A stretch of DNA of 64,000 bases, taken from NCBI RefSeq assembly GCF_001562055.1, contig NZ_LLWE01000029.1, positions 1-64,000 of the forward strand. The letters are read 5' to 3'. The translations under genes were made by a program, and so were the position numbers. The notes below the pieces were generated by a model that did not search any database, had not been told where the DNA came from, and saw only the letters and a program-made list of their open reading frames with translations. The DNA is from Polycladidibacter stylochi. GTDB taxonomy: Bacteria > Pseudomonadota > Alphaproteobacteria > Rhizobiales > Stappiaceae. Shown one piece after another: positions 4,375-44,602 of this stretch; within the stretch, counting starts at the first letter, position 1, and every line of letters starts with the position of its first letter.

Positions 4375-4451
4375 GGTCCCTTAGCTCAGCTGGATAGAGC
4401 ACCGGCCTTCTAAGCCGACGGTCGCAGGTTCGAATCCTGCAGGGATCGCCA
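4375..4451 (+). tRNA. tRNA-Arg (anticodon TCT)
   Basis: A full cloverleaf can be drawn. The acceptor stem GGTCCCT/AGGGATC has one G-U pair, discriminator G73 and an encoded CCA. The D-arm is GCTC/GAGC and the anticodon loop CTTCTAA gives anticodon TCT (reads AGA). The T-arm is GCAGG TTCGAAT CCTGC. One anticodon-stem end pair (27-43) is C-A mismatched. The Mu-like prophage begins 85 bp downstream, but its transposition does not use the tRNA as an attachment site. Confidence 0.95.
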
Positions 4452-4530: not shown

Positions 4531-4535
4531 GCTGT
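4531..4535. repeat. Left copy of the 5-bp target-site duplication (GCTGT)
   Basis: GCTGT sits immediately outside the left prophage terminus, which starts TGTAGCGCG at 4536. The same five bases flank the right terminus. A 5-bp duplication is the hallmark of Mu-type transposition. Confidence 0.85.
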
Positions 4536-4633: not shown

Positions 4634-5227
4634 TCACATATCTTCAAATATCGGCTTAAATTTACCAAGAGCCTCATTCACATTAATCAATCCAATAATG
4701 CAACGCTGCTGATCTACAATCCATTCTGCAGCTACGCTGAATGGTACGCGTCGCTGCGCTAAAAGTGCCTTCATAATGACTGGATGCATGACGCCTAGCA
4801 AATGGGTTACCGCTTGTTCGCTGGCACGCTTTAGTACGTTTTGAATGAGCAGATCCAAAGCTTTTTGTCGCTCTGGGGGCGGCAGGTTCTTTGCGGTGCA
4901 TATTCTGCTGGCCTCAATTAATCTGGCTGGCTTTATGGATATTGTTGAGGTCTGCTCAATCCAGTGATCATAGGCCATTGTTGCAGAAGTGCAGTTAATT
5001 AAACGGCAGCAGGCAATAGCTACACCATCTTTCAATACGACCACATACTCAGCCTCTGGTGTGTCATATTGATCATATTCCCAGCCTTGGTGTTTACGGA
5101 CCTGTCCCATGGATTTTTGATCGTATGCCAGTCTGTCAATGAAGCTTTCAGCCCTAAGTATATGCTGGGCAGGCCATGCCTTACATCCAGAACTCGCCTG
5201 CTTCCAATTTGTTATAATGACTTTCAT
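4634..5227 (-). CDS. luxI: LuxI-family acyl-homoserine-lactone synthase carried by the prophage
   Basis: A 197-residue autoinducer synthase, expected to make an N-acyl-homoserine lactone from S-adenosylmethionine and acyl-ACP (or acyl-CoA). The conserved family positions can be read: R25 and F29 in LRAESF, D52 and D55 in GWEYDQYD, the YVVV strand, R75 in ACCRL, and E105/R108 in LIEASR. The usual tryptophan ten residues after the first arginine is Y35 here, with W49 close to the DxxD. The ATG at 5227 is preferred because AGAGG lies 6 bases upstream; a GTG eight codons earlier has no such site. It lies 59 bp downstream of luxR on the same strand and only 98 bp inside the left phage end, so it is phage cargo. 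Acyl-chain specificity cannot be read from the sequence. Confidence 0.9.
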   Translation of the reverse strand: MKVIITNWKQASSGCKAWPAQHILRAESFIDRLAYDQKSMGQVRKHQGWEYDQYDTPEAEYVVVLKDGVAIACCRLINCTSATMAYDHWIEQTSTISIKPARLIEASRICTAKNLPPPERQKALDLLIQNVLKRASEQAVTHLLGVMHPVIMKALLAQRRVPFSVAAEWIVDQQRCIIGLINVNEALGKFKPIFEDM

Positions 5228-5286
5228 GGAACCTCTCGTTTCTTGAGGCACTAAAGTCGGTTTCTATAAGTTTGGGCAGGGTGACA

Positions 5287-5946
5287 TCAAACAATGCCCA
5301 GTCGTGCTGCTGCAGATATAGCGGTGGCTGCATTTCCATTTTCAAGTTTTGAATAAACTTTGCGCAGGTGCCAATTAATGCCATCGCGGGTGATATTCAG
5401 AGTGTCAGCGATTTCTTCGCCGGACATACCTGCGGCAAGATATTGAAGAATTTCCTTCTGGCGCGGACTTAATGATTGCAAAGGGTGTGAAAACAGGTCT
5501 GTGTCATAAGTTGCAAGTGATTGAGAGTGAAAAATCGCCCCTGCGCCAATGGCTTGATCTGTCTGCTGACGGTCAATTCTCTGGGTGGATCCAAATGACA
5601 GGCAGAACCGAGCGCCACCCGGACCCAGTAGAGGCACTGCAAACCCGTGGCGTAGGCCGTGAGAAGCCGCTGCCTCCAATACCCTTGTCTCCTGCTTGCA
5701 GCTAGTAAGTTCATGCCAATCTAGCGCGATACCAGCTTTTACGCAGTTATTGATGACTGGATCGTTCGCGTTCAACTCCTGCTCAAAATACTCGTCCACC
5801 CACGCATCTGGATAATTTAAAAGCACCGCAGGAGATCGGTGATCTATCCCTACATGGCCACTCAGGCACCCATAGGCGACGTATTCGATTCCCAATTCAT
5901 TACATTGAGCAGCAAGTCTGGCAAAACTCATGTGGTCAAACTCCAT
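5287..5946 (-). CDS. luxR: LuxR-family AHL-responsive regulator carried by the prophage
   Basis: A 219-residue quorum-sensing regulator. Residues 1-145 form the autoinducer-binding domain and keep the ligand-pocket set W49, Y53, D62, P63, W77 and G101, with spacing matching TraR-type receptors. Residues 158-215 are the LuxR-type helix-turn-helix (LSPRQKEILQYLAAG, then EEIADTLNI and the recognition helix around GINWHLRKVYSKL), with the conserved E165 and G173. No receiver domain is present, so this is an AHL receptor and not a two-component regulator. ATG at 5946 is used; ATG at 5931 (residue 6) has GGAG upstream and could be the true start. It lies between the phage repressor and luxI, all transcribed leftward. 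Confidence 0.93.
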   Translation of the reverse strand: MEFDHMSFARLAAQCNELGIEYVAYGCLSGHVGIDHRSPAVLLNYPDAWVDEYFEQELNANDPVINNCVKAGIALDWHELTSCKQETRVLEAAASHGLRHGFAVPLLGPGGARFCLSFGSTQRIDRQQTDQAIGAGAIFHSQSLATYDTDLFSHPLQSLSPRQKEILQYLAAGMSGEEIADTLNITRDGINWHLRKVYSKLENGNAATAISAAARLGIV

Positions 5947-5950
5947 TAAT

Positions 5951-5970
5951 AACTACACACATGATTAGTT
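5951..5970 (-). promoter_or_regulatory. Candidate lux-type box upstream of luxR
   Basis: The 20-mer AACTACACACATGATTAGTT has the form NNCT-N12-AGNN known for LasR/RhlR-type boxes. It sits in a longer perfect inverted repeat (ATAACTA at 5949-5955 and TAGTTAT at 5966-5972). It ends 5 bases before the luxR start codon. Read leftward, a TTGAAA -35-like hexamer lies 17 bases before TAACTA in this repeat, so a bound receptor could block or tune luxR-luxI transcription. The promoter call is weak; the palindrome is clear. Confidence 0.5.
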
Positions 5971-5979
5971 ATCAACAGT

Positions 5980-6003
5980 TGAATGACTTTTCAATTACAT
6001 TCA
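5980..6003. promoter_or_regulatory. Inverted repeat between repressor gene and luxR, possible operator
   Basis: TGAATG (5980-5985) and CATTCA (5998-6003) are perfect inverted arms 12 bases apart, in the 152-bp gap between the repressor stop and luxR. The position fits a second regulator site controlling luxR-luxI separately from the repressor transcript. There is no direct evidence for the binding protein. Confidence 0.25.
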
Positions 6004-6098: not shown

Positions 6099-6536
6099 TC
6101 AATCTAACAAAAACTTAATCACATCCGGCAGGGTTGCCAGCTTGTTTTTAGCTACATTGCCCTCTGCATCAGCCTTACTCAGTGCCAATTGATAGGCGCT
6201 TGCAAGTATACCGCTAATCTGTGCGCTCTGGAATTCATCTAGAGATTTCCGAGCTTTAAGCTCACTCAGTACGATTTCAAAAACTTGTTTAAATACAGTT
6301 TCATTTATAGAGCCGGAAAGCACAGGCACTCTTTCTTCACCTGATATCAGCCAGTTTAGGTCCGTACCAAATTGCTCGGCGTATCTAGCCAGTAAATCAG
6401 CCGGTGGCTGGCGCTTATTCAGCTCGTAATTGGAGAGAGTTGATTCAGCTATTCCAAAAAGAGTGGCAACTGATCTGCGCGTGCGTGGCTCACGAGCTAT
6501 GGCCATGCGCTGCCCTAATGTTTGGTCGTTTGGCAT
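6099..6536 (-). CDS. Phage repressor, XRE/Cro-CI helix-turn-helix family
   Basis: A 145-residue protein at the position of the Mu c repressor: leftward, facing Ner and the transposase. The N-terminal HTH spans about residues 5-65 (LGQRMAIAREPRTRRSVATLF, then IAESTLSNYELNKRQPP and LLARYAEQFGTDLNWLISG), the usual XRE repressor pattern. The C-terminal part is helical with no S24 peptidase motif, so classical RecA-driven self-cleavage is not expected. ATG 6536 has GGAG 6-7 bases upstream. The same-strand genes downstream are luxR and luxI, so transcription from the repressor promoter could run into the quorum-sensing pair. Confidence 0.85.
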   Translation of the reverse strand: MPNDQTLGQRMAIAREPRTRRSVATLFGIAESTLSNYELNKRQPPADLLARYAEQFGTDLNWLISGEERVPVLSGSINETVFKQVFEIVLSELKARKSLDEFQSAQISGILASAYQLALSKADAEGNVAKNKLATLPDVIKFLLD

Positions 6537-6565: not shown

Positions 6566-6577
6566 AGTCATATGACT
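6566..6577. promoter_or_regulatory. 12-bp perfect palindrome in the repressor-Ner divergent control region
   Basis: AGTCATATGACT is a perfect palindrome in the 79-bp gap between the divergent repressor and Ner starts. It is the best operator candidate for the repressor or Ner in the early lytic switch. No second exact copy was seen in the gap. Confidence 0.45.
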
Positions 6578-6615
6578 GTTAGCTTATTCACAAATGTAAC
6601 AAAGTGAGCGCAGTT

Positions 6616-6966
6616 ATGAACAAACCGGCCCGCGATAAGTTTGACGTCCAGAGACGATTGGCGGCACAAAATCGCACATTAACAAGCCTTGCTCGTGATG
6701 CCGGTTACTCTGAGTCGCTCTGTCGTAATGCTTTTTACCGCCCAACCCTTATAGGTGAAGAGCTAATAATTGCAGCCACAGGCTATTCCGGACACGATTT
6801 ATGGCCAGATAGATATGACTGCCACGGCAAACGGCACGTCCAACAAGGAAAAACTACGCCGAAAACATTACCCGCACAATGTCAAACAGATTGCCAATAT
6901 TTAGCTACAGAACAGTGTAGCACGCACGTTTGTAGTTGTTTGCCTACTCATGGGAGCAAGCAATGA
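6616..6966 (+). CDS. ner: Ner-like early DNA-binding regulator
   Basis: A 116-residue protein whose first 70 residues match the Ner/Nlp fold: DVQRRLAAQNRTLTSLARDAGYSESL, then CRNAFYRP, and GHDLWPDRYD closing the domain. In Mu, Ner is a small negative regulator of the early and repressor promoters. This version has an extra tail of about 45 residues rich in cysteine (C-x(3)-C, CSTHVCSC), absent from typical 70-90-residue Ner proteins. A GTG at 6604 is an alternative start. Its stop overlaps the next start as ATGA at 6963. Confidence 0.8.
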   Translation: MNKPARDKFDVQRRLAAQNRTLTSLARDAGYSESLCRNAFYRPTLIGEELIIAATGYSGHDLWPDRYDCHGKRHVQQGKTTPKTLPAQCQTDCQYLATEQCSTHVCSCLPTHGSKQ

Positions 6967-7391
6967 ACGACCTCTGCAAAACATGGGGGATTGACGACTT
7001 GGGAGAGACGCGTGCTCTCCAAGGCACCGAGGTGAGCGCGGCATTAAAACTGGAACTGAGCGAGGCTATGGCTCGCAGCCCTCTCAGCCGCGCCGAAATC
7101 GCCCATCGAATGACGCTTTATCTGGGCACTAAAATTAGCGAAGCACAGTTAAACCAGTATGCAGCCCCTTCTGCTGGTGACAAACAAATGTCACTACCCC
7201 GCCTTGCTGCTTTTATTCACGCGACGAATGACAGCCATCTCATCCAGTTTTTACCATCGCTATTTGGCTTAACTGTCATCAATCAGCGCCAGCGTGCCCT
7301 CTTGGAAAGAGAGCTGTTAAAGGAACGTTTAAAGGCGCTTGAAAGCGATATTGCACTTGCCGACGCCACCTATCGGGGGAGCAGCCAATGA
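6963..7391 (+). CDS. Uncharacterised early protein between Ner and transposase A
   Basis: A 142-residue protein starting MNDLCKTWGIDD, with GGGAG upstream and ATGA overlaps on both sides (with Ner and with the transposase), so it is translationally coupled to them. A helix-turn-helix-like stretch, SRAEIAHRMTLYLGTKISEAQLNQYAA (about residues 41-67), and a helical, charged C-terminus (LLERELLKERLKALESD) are visible. Its place suggests a role in transposition control, but I recognise no named family. Confidence 0.6.
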   Translation: MNDLCKTWGIDDLGETRALQGTEVSAALKLELSEAMARSPLSRAEIAHRMTLYLGTKISEAQLNQYAAPSAGDKQMSLPRLAAFIHATNDSHLIQFLPSLFGLTVINQRQRALLERELLKERLKALESDIALADATYRGSSQ

Positions 7392-9631
7392 AACAATGGT
7401 GGACTAGGCGCGAATTAATTGCCGCTCGTTTACCGGGCTTATCATCGGCTGCTGCTGTATCACGTTGTGCAGTGACGATGAATTGGGCAGAAAATCCCGA
7501 AAAGTACCGGCGTAATGCAGGTAGTGCTAGCGGCACTTACGAAGTTCATTACACATTACTACCAAGAAAAGCGCGGGATGCGATAGCGGCCAAAGAGGCT
7601 ATGGCACGTATAAATAATGCGCCAGTAAACGAAAGCTGTGAGCAAATCGGCTACAAGCACGATGCGGCCAGCAACGCTATTGAGCGAAGCGAACTTGATG
7701 CCAGAATGGCAATCCTTTCAGCCATTGAAAACTATCAGAATTCAGCGAATTGCAGCTTTTCCAAGGCGCTAGTGGTTGTTTCCCATCAATACAATACGGG
7801 TGAATTTAAAATCGCCACTTGGGTGAAGGACGCAATACCATCCTTTAAAAAATCGGCTGTCTACAATTGGCGATCAGCCATGAAAAATGGTGATTTTTCG
7901 GCCCTTGCCAGTACGCGCAAACTGTCGCGTGCACAAACTGGTGTGCTGGAGGTTGCGCATAGCGGTGCTGTCAAACAATTCATCCTCGGGTTGATTGCCA
8001 AGCAACCGCATCTGAGCTGCAAACCGATACGCGCCGCGGTGATTGCCAAGTTTGGCGAGTGCTTTGAGCTGGTGGTCCGTTCTGGCGAGGTCAAAACCGT
8101 TGCCTGCCCGCCGCTGCGCACCTTCCAGCATCATATCAAGGCATGGAAACAGGAGCACGCCAACGAGCTGCTACGCCTCACCAACCCCGATAAATACAAG
8201 GGCAGTGTGCGTATGGTGGCCGCTGGCGGTGCCAGCGCCAATATCCACCGCCTGAACCAGTTATGGGAAATTGATGCATCACCCGCCGATGTCATGACCA
8301 CCGAGGGCCGCTGGCATATTTACGCCTGTGTTGATGTATTCTCGCGCCGCGCATTGGTACTGGTGACACAAACCCCGCGTGCAGACGCTGTGGGTGTGCT
8401 CATTCGGGACGCCATTGCAAAATGGGGTGTGCCAGAGGCCGTAAAAACAGATAATGGTAGCGACTTTGTTGCCAAACAGACAGAGCGGCTGTTCGCCGCC
8501 CTTGGCATTGAGGTGCTGACCTGTGATGCCTACAGCCCCGAGCAAAAGCCCCACGTGGAGCGGTTTATTGGCACATGGCAGCGTGGATTTGCCGAGTTAC
8601 TGCCCGGCTATGTGGGCCACAGCGTTGCGGACCGCTCCGTCATTGAATCGCGCAGGAAGTTTTCTGATCGGCTCGGCACATCGGATGCCGAGATATTTGC
8701 GGTCGATCTATCCCCGCAAGAGTTGCAGGAGGCTTCTACCCAATGGGTAGAGACAGTCTACGAGCACAATCGCCACGGCGCATTAGGCTGCACGCCATTT
8801 ACCAAGGCACAGCAATACACAGGCTCCATTAAAACGGTTGGTGAAACCGCACTCAATGTGCTGCTGGCGCCAATTGCCAGCGGCAATGGTATTCGCACAG
8901 TGACAAAATCGGGCATCCGCTGCAACAACGAGCACTATCTGATCGGCAACGTGATGGTGGGCGAGCGGGTGTTCTGCCGCCAAGACCCTCGCGATCTGGG
9001 CAAGCTGTTTGTGTTTTCAGATGACGGCGAGCAGTTCCTCGGCCATGCCTTTGCACCGGTGCTGGCTGGGCTGGATCCGGTCAAAACCATCGCGCATGTG
9101 CGCAAAATGCAAAAAGCGCTGGAGGAAGAACAGATCACCTCCATGCGTCGCCAGATGCGCAAGATCGGCCCGCGCGATGTGTTGAACGCGGTGCTGGAAC
9201 AGGGCCAAAGCAACATCACAGCCTTCCCGAAACCAAGCGAGACACACAGCACACCAATGCTTTCGGCCGCTGGCGAGGTGACAAAACTCACCCAGCCGGA
9301 ACTGCCGGACGGGCTGGATGATGTGATGGCGCAAATAAAAGCCGAGCTGGATAGTGAGGCAGTACAGCCAGTACAGCCAGAACAGCCCGCCCAGCCCTCA
9401 AAGACACCAAGACAATCGCGGCCAAGCACGGCCGCAAACACCCGCCCCATTAAGGCAGAGAGCCAGTTCGACCGTTATCGCCGCGCATTGGCCTTGGAAA
9501 AACGCATCAGCGCAGGCGATCCGCTGAGTGAGGCTGATGCCCGTTGGCTGGCAGGATATCGCGAAGGTGCGGAATACAAATCCATGAAAATCATGGCTGA
9601 CGAGTTCGGGGAGAGTTTTCTGGAGGGCTAG
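7388..9631 (+). CDS. A: Mu-type transposase A (DDE recombinase)
   Basis: A 747-residue transposase. Residues 1-70 form the MuA-type winged-helix end-binding domain (WWTRRELIAARLPGLS and NPEKYRRNAG). The catalytic rve core has D296 (WEIDASPAD), D355 (VKTDNGSDF) and E391 (PHVERFIGTW), giving the D-x58-D-x35-E spacing of Mu-type enzymes. The C-terminal part carries a basic linker and proline/glutamine repeats (PVQPVQPEQPAQP-like, about 655-665), followed by a tail of the kind that contacts B and ClpX in Mu. It performs strand transfer at the phage ends during integration and replicative transposition. It overlaps the preceding gene by ATGA. Confidence 0.96.
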   Translation: MKQWWTRRELIAARLPGLSSAAAVSRCAVTMNWAENPEKYRRNAGSASGTYEVHYTLLPRKARDAIAAKEAMARINNAPVNESCEQIGYKHDAASNAIERSELDARMAILSAIENYQNSANCSFSKALVVVSHQYNTGEFKIATWVKDAIPSFKKSAVYNWRSAMKNGDFSALASTRKLSRAQTGVLEVAHSGAVKQFILGLIAKQPHLSCKPIRAAVIAKFGECFELVVRSGEVKTVACPPLRTFQHHIKAWKQEHANELLRLTNPDKYKGSVRMVAAGGASANIHRLNQLWEIDASPADVMTTEGRWHIYACVDVFSRRALVLVTQTPRADAVGVLIRDAIAKWGVPEAVKTDNGSDFVAKQTERLFAALGIEVLTCDAYSPEQKPHVERFIGTWQRGFAELLPGYVGHSVADRSVIESRRKFSDRLGTSDAEIFAVDLSPQELQEASTQWVETVYEHNRHGALGCTPFTKAQQYTGSIKTVGETALNVLLAPIASGNGIRTVTKSGIRCNNEHYLIGNVMVGERVFCRQDPRDLGKLFVFSDDGEQFLGHAFAPVLAGLDPVKTIAHVRKMQKALEEEQITSMRRQMRKIGPRDVLNAVLEQGQSNITAFPKPSETHSTPMLSAAGEVTKLTQPELPDGLDDVMAQIKAELDSEAVQPVQPEQPAQPSKTPRQSRPSTAANTRPIKAESQFDRYRRALALEKRISAGDPLSEADARWLAGYREGAEYKSMKIMADEFGESFLEG

Positions 9632-9688: not shown

Positions 9689-10438
9689 ATGACAGGTAAC
9701 CGGAATGTTGTCAATGGCGGCTTTGCACCGCTTAAAAATGTCGCTCTAGCCATGCAACTGGCGAATAAGCTGATTGACCGTGATTTTAGCTTACCCGGCT
9801 TTGGTGTCTTTTATGGCCCCTCTGGGTTTGGCAAAACCCAGTCGAGCATTTTCGTCCAGAACAAAACCGGTGCCACCCGCATCGAAATTGCTGATAGCTG
9901 GACGAAAAAGAAAATGGTCTCGGCCATCTTGATGGAGCTGGGCGTACAAAAACCGCGCGGCACCATTGCCGATCTCACCGAACAGGCCATTCACCTGCTC
10001 TCGGACAACCCGCATCAGCCGCTGATTATTGATGAAGCGGATAAGCTGATTGAGAAAAAGCTGGTAGAGCTGGTGCGCGAAATCCAAGAGCACAGCCAAG
10101 CGCCCGTACTGCTACTGGGCGAAGAGCTGTTGCCGCAAAAGCTGGAACAATATGAACGCGCCCATAACCGCGTGCTGGAATTTGTAGGCGCATTGCCATG
10201 CGATCTGGCCGACACACAAGCGCTGGCCCGCTGCTATGCCCCAAAACTGGACATCATGGAGGATCTGGCACAGCGCATTTGCGATGAAACCCATGGCCGC
10301 GCAAGGCGCATTGCCACCACTTTGGTGGCTGTGCGTGAGTTTGCCACCAATGCCGGGCTGGAGCGCATAGGTAGCGCTGACTACACCGGCAAAATCATCT
10401 CTGGTGCGTCTCCGGCAACACGGAGGCTGGGCAAATGA
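9689..10438 (+). CDS. B: MuB-like AAA+ ATPase, target capture protein
   Basis: A 249-residue ATPase with Walker A at residues 43-50 (GPSGFGKT) and Walker B PLIIDEADKL (D115, E116). Further AAA motifs follow (VLLLGEELLP as sensor 1-like, and a C-terminal helical domain with ETHGRARRIATTLV). MuB-type proteins bind DNA as filaments, deliver target DNA to the transposase and give target immunity. The start has TGAGGA about 10 bases upstream. Its stop overlaps the next gene by ATGA. Confidence 0.92.
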   Translation: MTGNRNVVNGGFAPLKNVALAMQLANKLIDRDFSLPGFGVFYGPSGFGKTQSSIFVQNKTGATRIEIADSWTKKKMVSAILMELGVQKPRGTIADLTEQAIHLLSDNPHQPLIIDEADKLIEKKLVELVREIQEHSQAPVLLLGEELLPQKLEQYERAHNRVLEFVGALPCDLADTQALARCYAPKLDIMEDLAQRICDETHGRARRIATTLVAVREFATNAGLERIGSADYTGKIISGASPATRRLGK

Positions 10439-12575: not shown

Positions 12576-13131
12576 CCATTTGACAGCGCAGCAATTAACC
12601 AGCATAGTGGCGGGTGAGGCGTCAGAACCTCTCACGAAGCGGACACCGCACCCGTCAGCCTGCGGTATTTTTGTGCCCGGAATCTATCCGGCGCACGATC
12701 TCGCTATGGGCGGGAGGGCGGTGAATACAATACCCGTAAGGGGAATAAACCCGCCTTTTCTTTGTGAAGGTTCTGAACCTCCCGCTCACCAGTGGGTCGT
12801 CAGAAACTCTCTGTTGAGTGGTTCCCAAACTGCCAACAAAGAGGCTTTTGATATGACCCATGCGAATAGCGCCCACAATGCGCTGAGAGAAATCCGAAAA
12901 ACCCTTGATGACATGGATGCGGGGCTGCTGGAGATAAGAAGTCTGGCCAGCGCTCTTGTAACTGTTCTCGACCAGAGCAAGCAGGATGCCTCTGCCCATG
13001 AAACGGTTCATGTGCTCGCCCGTCTGCTGCACGAGCGTGCAATCTCTCCCGACCTTTCCGCCGATCGCACCAACCACAATCTGTGCGTTGTTTATGACTG
13101 TCTGACAGCAAAGGAATTCGGCCATGCATGA
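12559..13131 (+). CDS. Hypothetical protein; N-terminal half may be a non-coding structured region
   Basis: The frame is open for 190 codons from an ATG with GGGAGG upstream. Residues 98-190 (from MTHANSAHNALREIRKTLDD) form a normal helical protein, and an internal ATG at 12853 with AGAGG upstream could serve as its start. Residues 30-95 are unusual (GIFVPGIYPAHDLAMGGRAV, PVRGINPPFLCEGSEP) and coincide with a hairpin-rich DNA stretch. They recall P4-type phage Ash/Icd-like entries, where an RNA element is translated in silico. The real product may be only the 92-residue protein 12853-13131. Confidence 0.45.
   Translation: MIPRIDHLTAQQLTSIVAGEASEPLTKRTPHPSACGIFVPGIYPAHDLAMGGRAVNTIPVRGINPPFLCEGSEPPAHQWVVRNSLLSGSQTANKEAFDMTHANSAHNALREIRKTLDDMDAGLLEIRSLASALVTVLDQSKQDASAHETVHVLARLLHERAISPDLSADRTNHNLCVVYDCLTAKEFGHA
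12673..12759 (+). ncRNA. Candidate structured RNA element with two hairpins and a U-run
   Basis: Hairpin 1 pairs GTGC-CCGG with CCGG-C-GCAC (12673-12696, one bulge). Hairpin 2 has an outer GGCGGG/CCCGCC stem (12709-12714 with 12750-12755), a nested CCC-GTAA-GGG stem with a GNRA tetraloop (12733-12742), and then UUUU. This is terminator-like and lies in the early operon. It could be an attenuator or small RNA with a role like P4 immunity RNA. The structure is read directly; the function is a guess. Confidence 0.35.
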
Positions 13132-13816
13132 GATCAGTTTTATCTATTTCGAACCCTACATCATCCGCATGATCAATCGGCCCACAGCTCCGCTGTTTAT
13201 GGTCAGCGATATTAGCCGGGTGCTGGGCTATTACAGCAGTATCCACCTGCGCCGTCGCCTTGCCCCCGAACAGCGCCATTTATGCCAGCTGCCCACCCGC
13301 TTCGGGTTGCAAACATGCATTTTCACCGATGTTGTCGGGCTGGAGCAGATGTTCAGAACCAGCCACAAACCCCGCACAGCCAAGCTGGCAGCTTTTCTCA
13401 TGGGGTGCGCGCAGGGGCGTGGGCAACCGCCGCTACAAGTACCTCAATCCATGTCGAGCCGCGAAATTGCCGAGCGTTGCAACAAGCAGCATAAACATGT
13501 CATTCGCGATATTGAAAAGATGCTGGATGACCTGTCAGAAGATCGGCTCAAATTTGAGCACATCTCAAAAGACAGCTATGGGCGCGACCAAAAATCCTAT
13601 CTCTTGCCTAAAGACCTAACTCTCACTCTGGTTACCGGCTACAACGTCAAGCTACGCAAGGCCATCATTGACCGCTGGCAGCAACTGGAAGAACAGGCAT
13701 GGCAACGGCACTTTGCTGGTCCTTCGCTGGTGCTGGATATGCCCGCCGCCCATAGCGAGTTGCAACGCAAAGCCGCTGCCTATGACAAGGTGGCACAGCT
13801 GTTGGGAGAGCACTAA
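13124..13816 (+). CDS. Antirepressor-type protein: BRO-N-like N-terminus plus Rha domain
   Basis: A 230-residue regulator. Residues 1-85 look like a BRO/KilA-type N-terminal module (PLFMVSDISRVLGYYSSIHLRRRL, FTDVVGLEQMF). Residues 105-200 match the phage Rha regulator pattern: SSREIAERCNKQHKHVIRDIEKML, then KSYLLPKDLTLTLVTGYNVKLRKAIIDRWQQLE. Rha proteins influence phage development in lambdoid phages. A 72-bp piece of the Rha part is almost duplicated in the next gene. Confidence 0.75.
   Translation: MHEISFIYFEPYIIRMINRPTAPLFMVSDISRVLGYYSSIHLRRRLAPEQRHLCQLPTRFGLQTCIFTDVVGLEQMFRTSHKPRTAKLAAFLMGCAQGRGQPPLQVPQSMSSREIAERCNKQHKHVIRDIEKMLDDLSEDRLKFEHISKDSYGRDQKSYLLPKDLTLTLVTGYNVKLRKAIIDRWQQLEEQAWQRHFAGPSLVLDMPAAHSELQRKAAAYDKVAQLLGEH
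13610..13681 (+). repeat. 72-bp Rha-module repeat, copy 1 (copy 2 at 14086-14157)
   Basis: The block encoding KDLTLTLVTGYNxKLRKAIIDRWQ occurs twice with a single base difference. This shows a recent duplication or recombination between the two adjacent Rha-like genes. Confidence 0.85.
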
Positions 13817-44592: not shown

Positions 44593-44597
44593 TTACA

Positions 44598-44602
44598 GCT
44601 GT
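44598..44602. repeat. Right copy of the 5-bp target-site duplication (GCTGT)
   Basis: GCTGT follows the last prophage base (44597) and matches the bases before the left terminus exactly. Removing the prophage and one copy restores TTGCTAAGCTGTTCACGCTC. Confidence 0.85.

Follow-up and report, generated by a model that had tools for sequence, protein, structure and literature searches.

A LuxI-LuxR pair beside the repressor-like gene of a Mu-like prophage of Polycladidibacter stylochi, and related modules in other alphaproteobacterial phages

The closest described systems are two prophages of Phaeobacter inhibens T5, Phage A of the Mu family and Phage B, each of which carries an hth gene together with the genes xre, luxR, and luxI (PMC13345283, a bioRxiv preprint of July 2026). 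According to this preprint, the LuxI proteins of the T5 phages make AHLs, each AHL activates the lysogeny program of its own phage, and the lysogeny promoter requires luxI and luxR and, in Phage A, xre too. The preprint itself draws the parallel to arbitrium, the AimR-AimP system of SPbeta-type Bacillus phages, in which, as also summarized there, a signal released by lysogens favours lysogeny. In its survey of complete RefSeq genomes of Alphaproteobacteria with at least two luxI genes, prophage modules are described from the Roseobacter clade only. Besides this preprint, our search for literature on phage AHL modules, also outside Roseobacter or in Pseudovibrio, and on Mu-like phages at tRNA genes, with subscription journals thinly covered, led us only to the mention of a phage bin of a coral metagenome in which an AHL synthase and a LuxR regulator are encoded (2024; PMC11309003).

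In the present study, we analyzed 64,000 nucleotides of the Polycladidibacter stylochi genome (contig NZ_LLWE01000029.1, positions 1 to 64,000 of the forward strand), hereafter the window. The initial annotation of this DNA had placed a LuxI-LuxR pair inside a Mu-like prophage, 98 bp from its end and downstream of the phage repressor on the same strand. The prophage extends from 4536 to 44597 on the plus strand (40,062 bp), looks complete, and has TGT...ACA ends; its left end reads TGTAGCGCGCAAC from 4536 and its right end GTTACA, with the last base at 44597. These ends, the target repeat, the virion genes, and the Pfam matches bear out the location of the pair, the order xre-luxR-luxI on the minus strand agrees with the described position, and the distance of 98 bp is correct when measured to the stop codon of luxI. 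The features of the left part are as follows.

4375-4451, plus strand: host tRNA-Arg (TCT), with 84 bp between it and the left end of the prophage
4531-4535, no strand: left copy of the target-site duplication GCTGT; right copy at 44598-44602, both directly outside the prophage ends
4634-5227, minus strand: luxI, predicted AHL synthase of 197 aa (PF00765, 2.6e-13); start GTG 5251 according to the ORF finder
5287-5946, minus strand: luxR, predicted AHL receptor and regulator of 219 aa (PF03472, 4.5e-25; PF00196, 9.8e-14)
5965-5995, minus strand: 31-bp stretch in the xre-luxR gap, the same in the phage of P. hongkongensis; candidate for a regulatory site
6099-6536, minus strand: xre, repressor-like HTH protein (PF12844, PF01381, PF07022); start GTG 6548 or ATG 6536
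6566-6577, no strand: palindrome AGTCATATGACT, candidate operator in the divergent promoter region; 22% of shuffled sequences reach it
6604-6966, plus strand: hth, HTH_35 / phage repressor family (PF13693, 4.2e-12; phrog_769); opens the divergent early operon
6960-7391, plus strand: CII-like regulator (phrog_2345, 2.6e-25; phrog_101); ORF listed from 6936
7388-9631, plus strand: MuA-like transposase (PF00665, PF09299; phrog_310, 3.3e-92)
9689-10438, plus strand: MuB/TniB-like ATPase (PF13401, PF05621; phrog_296, 2.2e-47)

A DDE transposase with the Mu C-terminal domain, a MuB-like ATPase, the ends, and the 5-bp repeat identify the element as a Mu-like transposable phage. When 20 further ORFs of the prophage were scanned against PHROGs (E <= 1e-5), 18 were matched, among them those for terminase, portal, head protease, major head protein, baseplate, sheath, tape measure, endolysin, and DNA methyltransferase. 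As to a CI or Ner/C regulator apart from the module, which is not expected in phages of the kind described from Phaeobacter, the hth product itself fell in the phage repressor family in the scanned subset of ORFs; we take it to be Ner-like. The early region also contains an anti-repressor-like gene (13124-13816; phrog_63, 2.2e-21) without counterpart in the P. hongkongensis phage.

The luxI ORF (4634-5251, minus strand) scores 50.4 bits against PF00765 (cut-off 24). Its start is probably ATG 5227 and not GTG 5251, judging from the alignment of this ATG with the start in relatives. The luxR product scores 88.3 bits against PF03472 (cut-off 23) and 51.2 bits against PF00196; it thus has an AHL-binding domain and a GerE-type DNA-binding domain, together with the pocket residues W, Y, D, and W. 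No NCBIfam equivalog was matched above its own cut-off by LuxI or LuxR of the window. As profiles, the five aligned LuxI sequences align with solved AHL synthases (7 sequences; best, 6wn0, 7.4e-26), and the five aligned LuxR sequences match chains of RhlR, LasR, SdiA, and TraR. Across the four aligned Mu-like phages with the module, R25, F29, D52, D55, R75, E105, and R108 of LuxI and Y45, W49, Y53, D62, P63, W77, and G101 of LuxR are identical; we take these to be catalytic positions in LuxI and ligand-pocket positions in LuxR. Both reading frames are intact, and at the level of sequence the claim of conserved catalytic and ligand-pocket residues appears to be justified. The LuxI protein of the window thus combines the PF00765 score with the conserved R, D, D, R, E, and R, and deviates in Tyr 35; it also carries Met at position 84. 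The LuxI family usually has Trp and Phe at the positions matching 35 and 84. In the XRE proteins of the window, P. hongkongensis, the uncultured Pseudovibrio genome G008, and the Cohaesibacteraceae MAG (L137), no S24 peptidase was found with Pfam, in which they differ from the CI protein of phage RS1; this fits a switch that is not built on SOS cleavage.

Outside the 31-bp block at 5965-5995, the gap between xre and luxR is poorly conserved between the window and the P. hongkongensis phage. The xre-hth region of the latter has a similar palindrome at the same position as that of the window. As operators, however, the palindromes did no better than shuffled sequences and are not significant by themselves. 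Likewise, the 3' end of luxI showed no more RNA structure than shuffled sequences, and the surroundings of the module contained no excess of consensus promoters or terminators over shuffled sequences (within one standard deviation).

We then asked to which element the pair belongs. The end motif TGTAGCGCGCAA was found in six copies, namely in the window, on contig C13 of the same genome, on contigs C2 and C7 of P. hongkongensis, in Pseudovibrio G008, and in the Cohaesibacteraceae MAG L137. In all six, luxI or a broken copy of it is the first gene inside, and the DNA outside differs. P. hongkongensis is Polycladidibacter hongkongensis in the NCBI taxonomy (Stappiaceae, Hyphomicrobiales); it belongs to the same genus as the window, as does the uncultured Pseudovibrio G008. 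Among the 16 genomes of the genus, three have the transposase, and all three have the module. The layout of xre-luxR-luxI with hth occurs in 3/3 Pseudovibrio-group species with this transposase and in the Cohaesibacteraceae MAG; luxR and luxI follow xre on one strand, opposite to hth, in each of the four Mu-like modules that could be fully read. A luxI-luxR pair at the same site in strains lacking the prophage, which would speak against the initial annotation, was sought in the other 15 genomes of this genus. The left flank found its best match in the NDUFS4-like gene with its tRNA-Arg in 14 genomes and in a tRNA only in the 15th (L231), and the 2.1-3.5 kb fetched around these matches contained no luxI, luxR, or phage transposase. 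Among the 14, the genome of P. hongkongensis (L217) has its own prophage, the right end of which lies beside this tRNA-Arg. The luxI-luxR pair therefore belongs to the phage, not to the insertion site.

Damaged copies were also observed. On contig C13 of the window genome (L022 8647-9575), the second related prophage end has a luxI with an in-frame stop, and the luxR match breaks off near the contig end into unrelated sequence, by eye the end of an IS. No second match to the transposase was found in this genome. Contig C7 of P. hongkongensis (L024 10025-10925) holds a phage remnant in which the luxI frame is intact and only an 85-aa end of luxR is left.

Comparison of the window phage with the P. 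hongkongensis phage matched 29 of 31 proteins. LuxI, LuxR, and XRE are 65-71% identical, in contrast to the portal, large terminase, and major head proteins (90-96%) and the small terminase (100%); this difference fits exchange of the module or fast divergence of signal specificity. The module is not the sole variable part, since low identity is also seen elsewhere, in an early gene (55%) and in the tape measure and endolysin (72-73%), and two proteins are unmatched. The dN/dS values against P. hongkongensis are 0.18 for luxI (dS 1.3) and 0.10 for xre (dS 2.1), both rough owing to the high dS, and luxR yielded no dS. In a tree of 23 LuxI sequences, the five from Mu-like phages of Hyphomicrobiales form one clade (98/97), which is joined with weaker support (81/81) by LuxI of an Azospirillum phage-plasmid. 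LuxI of plasmid pP88_h groups with that of G011, another genome of the genus (99/98), and the L160 sequence stands elsewhere on a long branch. A single origin of all phage LuxI proteins is unsupported, as the tree requires three changes.

The initial annotation had proposed looking for the pair beside the repressor of other Mu-like prophages. A related transposase was found at 174 loci; among the best 80 of these, all named, luxI and luxR lie within the phage in four: L136 (P. hongkongensis), L137 (Cohaesibacteraceae MAG), L139 (Pseudovibrio), and L160 (Rhizobiales bacterium 65-79). With four of 80, the pair is not needed for this type of phage, although the strict left-end motif was found in just 36 of the 80 loci and many loci are cut short, so that absence elsewhere is unproven. 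In L160 (2913-6760), luxI-luxR lies between the left end, with motif TGTAACGCGCAAG, and a longer CI-like repressor, a 200-aa ORF without Pfam match; the gap between repressor and luxR is about 0.6 kb, and LuxI is 16% identical to that of the window. This module is probably a separate acquisition. LuxI in L150 and LuxR in L155 both lie outside the left end of the prophage and were rejected as phage genes; L212 contains just a short LuxR-like stretch, and no prophage end was found. No luxI or luxR was found in more distantly related Mu-like phages of the order, for which 32 early regions of 27 genomes were searched, several of them cut by contig ends.

Modules of other phage types were also found. 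Contig C21 of G011 (L133, L297), from the same genus, has HTH-luxR-luxI adjoining a tyrosine integrase and encodes a major head protein, portal, and terminase; it is an integrase-type prophage unrelated to the Mu-like phage. In a plasmid collection, 27 records match LuxI of the window, of which three were read. Two of them, pP88_h of P. inhibens P88 and p2 of Azospirillum sp. TSH100, have HTH-luxR-luxI together with terminase, portal, and tail genes; the third, a Leisingera plasmid, has luxI amid metabolic genes with no terminase, portal, or tail genes nearby. In p2 (L267/L236), a phage-plasmid of Rhodospirillales, the cassette lies between lysozyme and replication genes. In IMG/VR, LuxI of the window matched one contig whose luxI is identical and which may stem from the same genome, and LuxI of pP88_h, Azospirillum, G011, and L137 matched 5, 1, 3, and 0 loci, respectively (one of the G011 matches being weak and partial). 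Single-protein LuxI searches of phage records and of genome contigs gave no match. The XRE profile matched 304 of 394 Rhodobacteraceae genomes and was discarded as a marker because it is too general; the fetched flanks of the 30 XRE loci among the matches listed contained no luxI or luxR. At 13 LuxI loci of other genomes (12 from the searches of the class and relatives, and G011), our own profiles detected no transposase nearby and a weak XRE match only in L132. Since G011 was recognized as a prophage only by PHROGs, the other 12 loci may hide phages too.

The position beside a tRNA gene recurs. In the 36 loci with the strict motif, nine loci (L139, L146, L149, L158, L160, L178, L193, L201, and L210) have a tRNA gene within 500 bp upstream of the left end, that is, nine genes in 17.7 kb. 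All nine point at the phage, at distances of 26-456 bp. Further upstream, there are two tRNA genes in 155.5 kb, and the densities are thus 0.51 versus 0.013 per kb; some of the loci are related or belong to one genome. With a looser left-end motif, a tRNA gene is nearby in 10 of 39 loci. On P. hongkongensis C7, tRNA-Met lies about 95 bp from the left end. On its contig C2 (L232 6300-6460), the prophage adjoins the same tRNA-Arg as in the window in inverted orientation, with the right end about 75 bp off; the opposite orientation in two species indicates two separate insertions. It is likely that these Mu-like phages insert preferentially near tRNA genes, and the pattern points to a transposable phage whose choice of targets is linked to tRNA genes.

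In the 16 genomes of the genus, PF00765 matches at seven places in five genomes, and six of them are in phage DNA (the window, C13, two in P. hongkongensis, G008, and G011). The seventh, in G005, has an oppositely facing LuxR gene, with two radical-SAM genes and a cytochrome peroxidase gene near; no XRE or transposase match was found around it, and it is probably not a phage gene. The window genome has only two LuxI matches, both phage-borne, with the C13 copy broken. As the phage copies are the sole LuxI matches of this genome, the AHL would probably report lysogens alone. The genome also contains a further host LuxR-like gene (G000:C39:99718-100257; 27% identical to LuxR of the phage across residues 44-219), the product of which is a possible host listener.

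We consider it likely that the xre-luxR-luxI operon is the lysogeny operon of the phage with a built-in quorum-sensing loop. The genes, their order, their location in a phage, and the recurrence of the module were observed here; AHL production, the direction of control, and the effect on lysogeny we infer mainly from the related Phaeobacter phage. LuxI would produce an AHL; LuxR with AHL, probably together with XRE, would activate the promoter of its own operon, and XRE would hold the divergent hth-cII-transposase operon off. When lysogens are dense, AHL would accumulate and the phage would be kept in lysogeny; when they are rare, the loop would weaken and replicative transposition would start. 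This proposal is based on the gene order and divergent hth, as in phages A and B of P. inhibens T5, and on the recurrent layout, the left ends with luxI first, the retained residues, the rough dN/dS values, the lack of S24, and the lack of another LuxI. Tyr 35 and Met 84, the missing dS of luxR, palindromes equal to shuffled sequences, the pair in four of 80 loci, and two damaged copies count against it.

An alternative possibility could be that the pair is cargo of lysogenic conversion, which alters the behavior of the host through its own LuxR or through LuxR-like proteins of the host, without steering the phage itself. The host protein encoded on C39 could hear the signal, and in P. inhibens one phage AHL activates host quorum sensing too (PMC13345283). 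However, the pair is not loosely placed but tied to xre and hth in all of the fully read Mu-like modules, and we regard this explanation as unlikely. The two damaged copies described above, luxI with a stop and luxR cut on C13 and the 85-aa remainder of luxR on C7, could instead mean that the prophage is decaying and its luxI-luxR genes are of no further importance; for the window copy, which has intact frames, intact ends on both sides, and intact virion genes, this is very improbable. We give least credence to the opposite logic, in which LuxR-AHL drives lysis at high density, as host signals do in phage VP882, which according to PMC13345283 lyses at high density. Phages with a LuxR receptor but without luxI do exist, and 14 phage records match LuxR of the window. 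Nevertheless, it is the repressor operon and not the lytic one that contains luxR and luxI, and the nearest tested system promotes lysogeny (PMC13345283).

Returning to the lysogeny operon with its own loop, we lean to the broader view that AHL lysogeny switches are an exchangeable cassette of alphaproteobacterial temperate phages, found in at least three orders (Rhodobacterales, Hyphomicrobiales, and Rhodospirillales) and three phage types (transposable, integrase-type, and phage-plasmid), and are not a specialty of Roseobacter; in hosts without a luxI of their own, such as that of the window, the AHL would be a signal private to the phage, by which only lysogens are counted. The modules beyond Roseobacter are those of the Mu-like phages of Hyphomicrobiales, the integrase-type Pseudovibrio prophage, and the Azospirillum phage-plasmid. 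The very recently reported virus-to-virus signaling would be extended beyond the Roseobacter clade, reaching further types of phage and two additional orders. A host seemingly without its own AHL synthase could be simpler than Phaeobacter for testing self-counting by lysogens.

Among known phages, the nearest named ones by transposase are Rhodovulum phage RS1 and Rhodobacter phage RC1 (37% identity, 98% covered). RS1 has the same early layout as the window, but has the S24-containing CI and a hypothetical gene at the position of the module. Azospirillum p2 and pP88_h resemble the window in HTH-luxR-luxI with phage genes, but they are not transposable phages, and their LuxI proteins are 33.5% and 27.1% identical to that of the window, respectively. 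VP882 (as described in PMC13345283) and Aeromonas phage phiARM81ld also have a LuxR-type receptor but no luxI; they hear signals made by others, whereas the window phage carries the synthase as well. With arbitrium, the likeness is one of logic only, in that the system of the window would act alike; a peptide and AimR are used there and LuxI and LuxR here, the window genes match the LuxR and LuxI families and not AimR or AimP, and the systems are not related by descent. The initial annotation had presented a transposable phage that both makes and senses an AHL as a counterpart of arbitrium. That the phage encodes a synthase and a receptor is observed, and production of the AHL is predicted. 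The arbitrium parallel gains from the experiments on the Mu-family phage of Phaeobacter, but it is no longer new, since it is already drawn in PMC13345283; the window phage is a further example, from a different bacterial order. With the T5 phages, as described there, it shares xre-luxR-luxI with divergent hth, membership of the Mu family (Phage A), and phage-encoded copies of both genes, and the modules likewise diverge and are exchanged between related phages. It differs in its host, which belongs to Hyphomicrobiales and not to the Roseobacter clade of the survey, and in that Phaeobacter has a host luxI besides the phage ones, whereas no other luxI was found in the window genome. Its genome, in 43 contigs, may have fallen outside that survey of complete genomes. 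The two are likened by gene layout as described, rather than by alignment of sequences, and the function of the window module would follow by analogy. With xre, luxR, and luxI in order on one strand, a counter-oriented hth upstream of xre, and its location in a prophage, the window module is by anatomy a member of the kind described in PMC13345283, outside the host range reported there.
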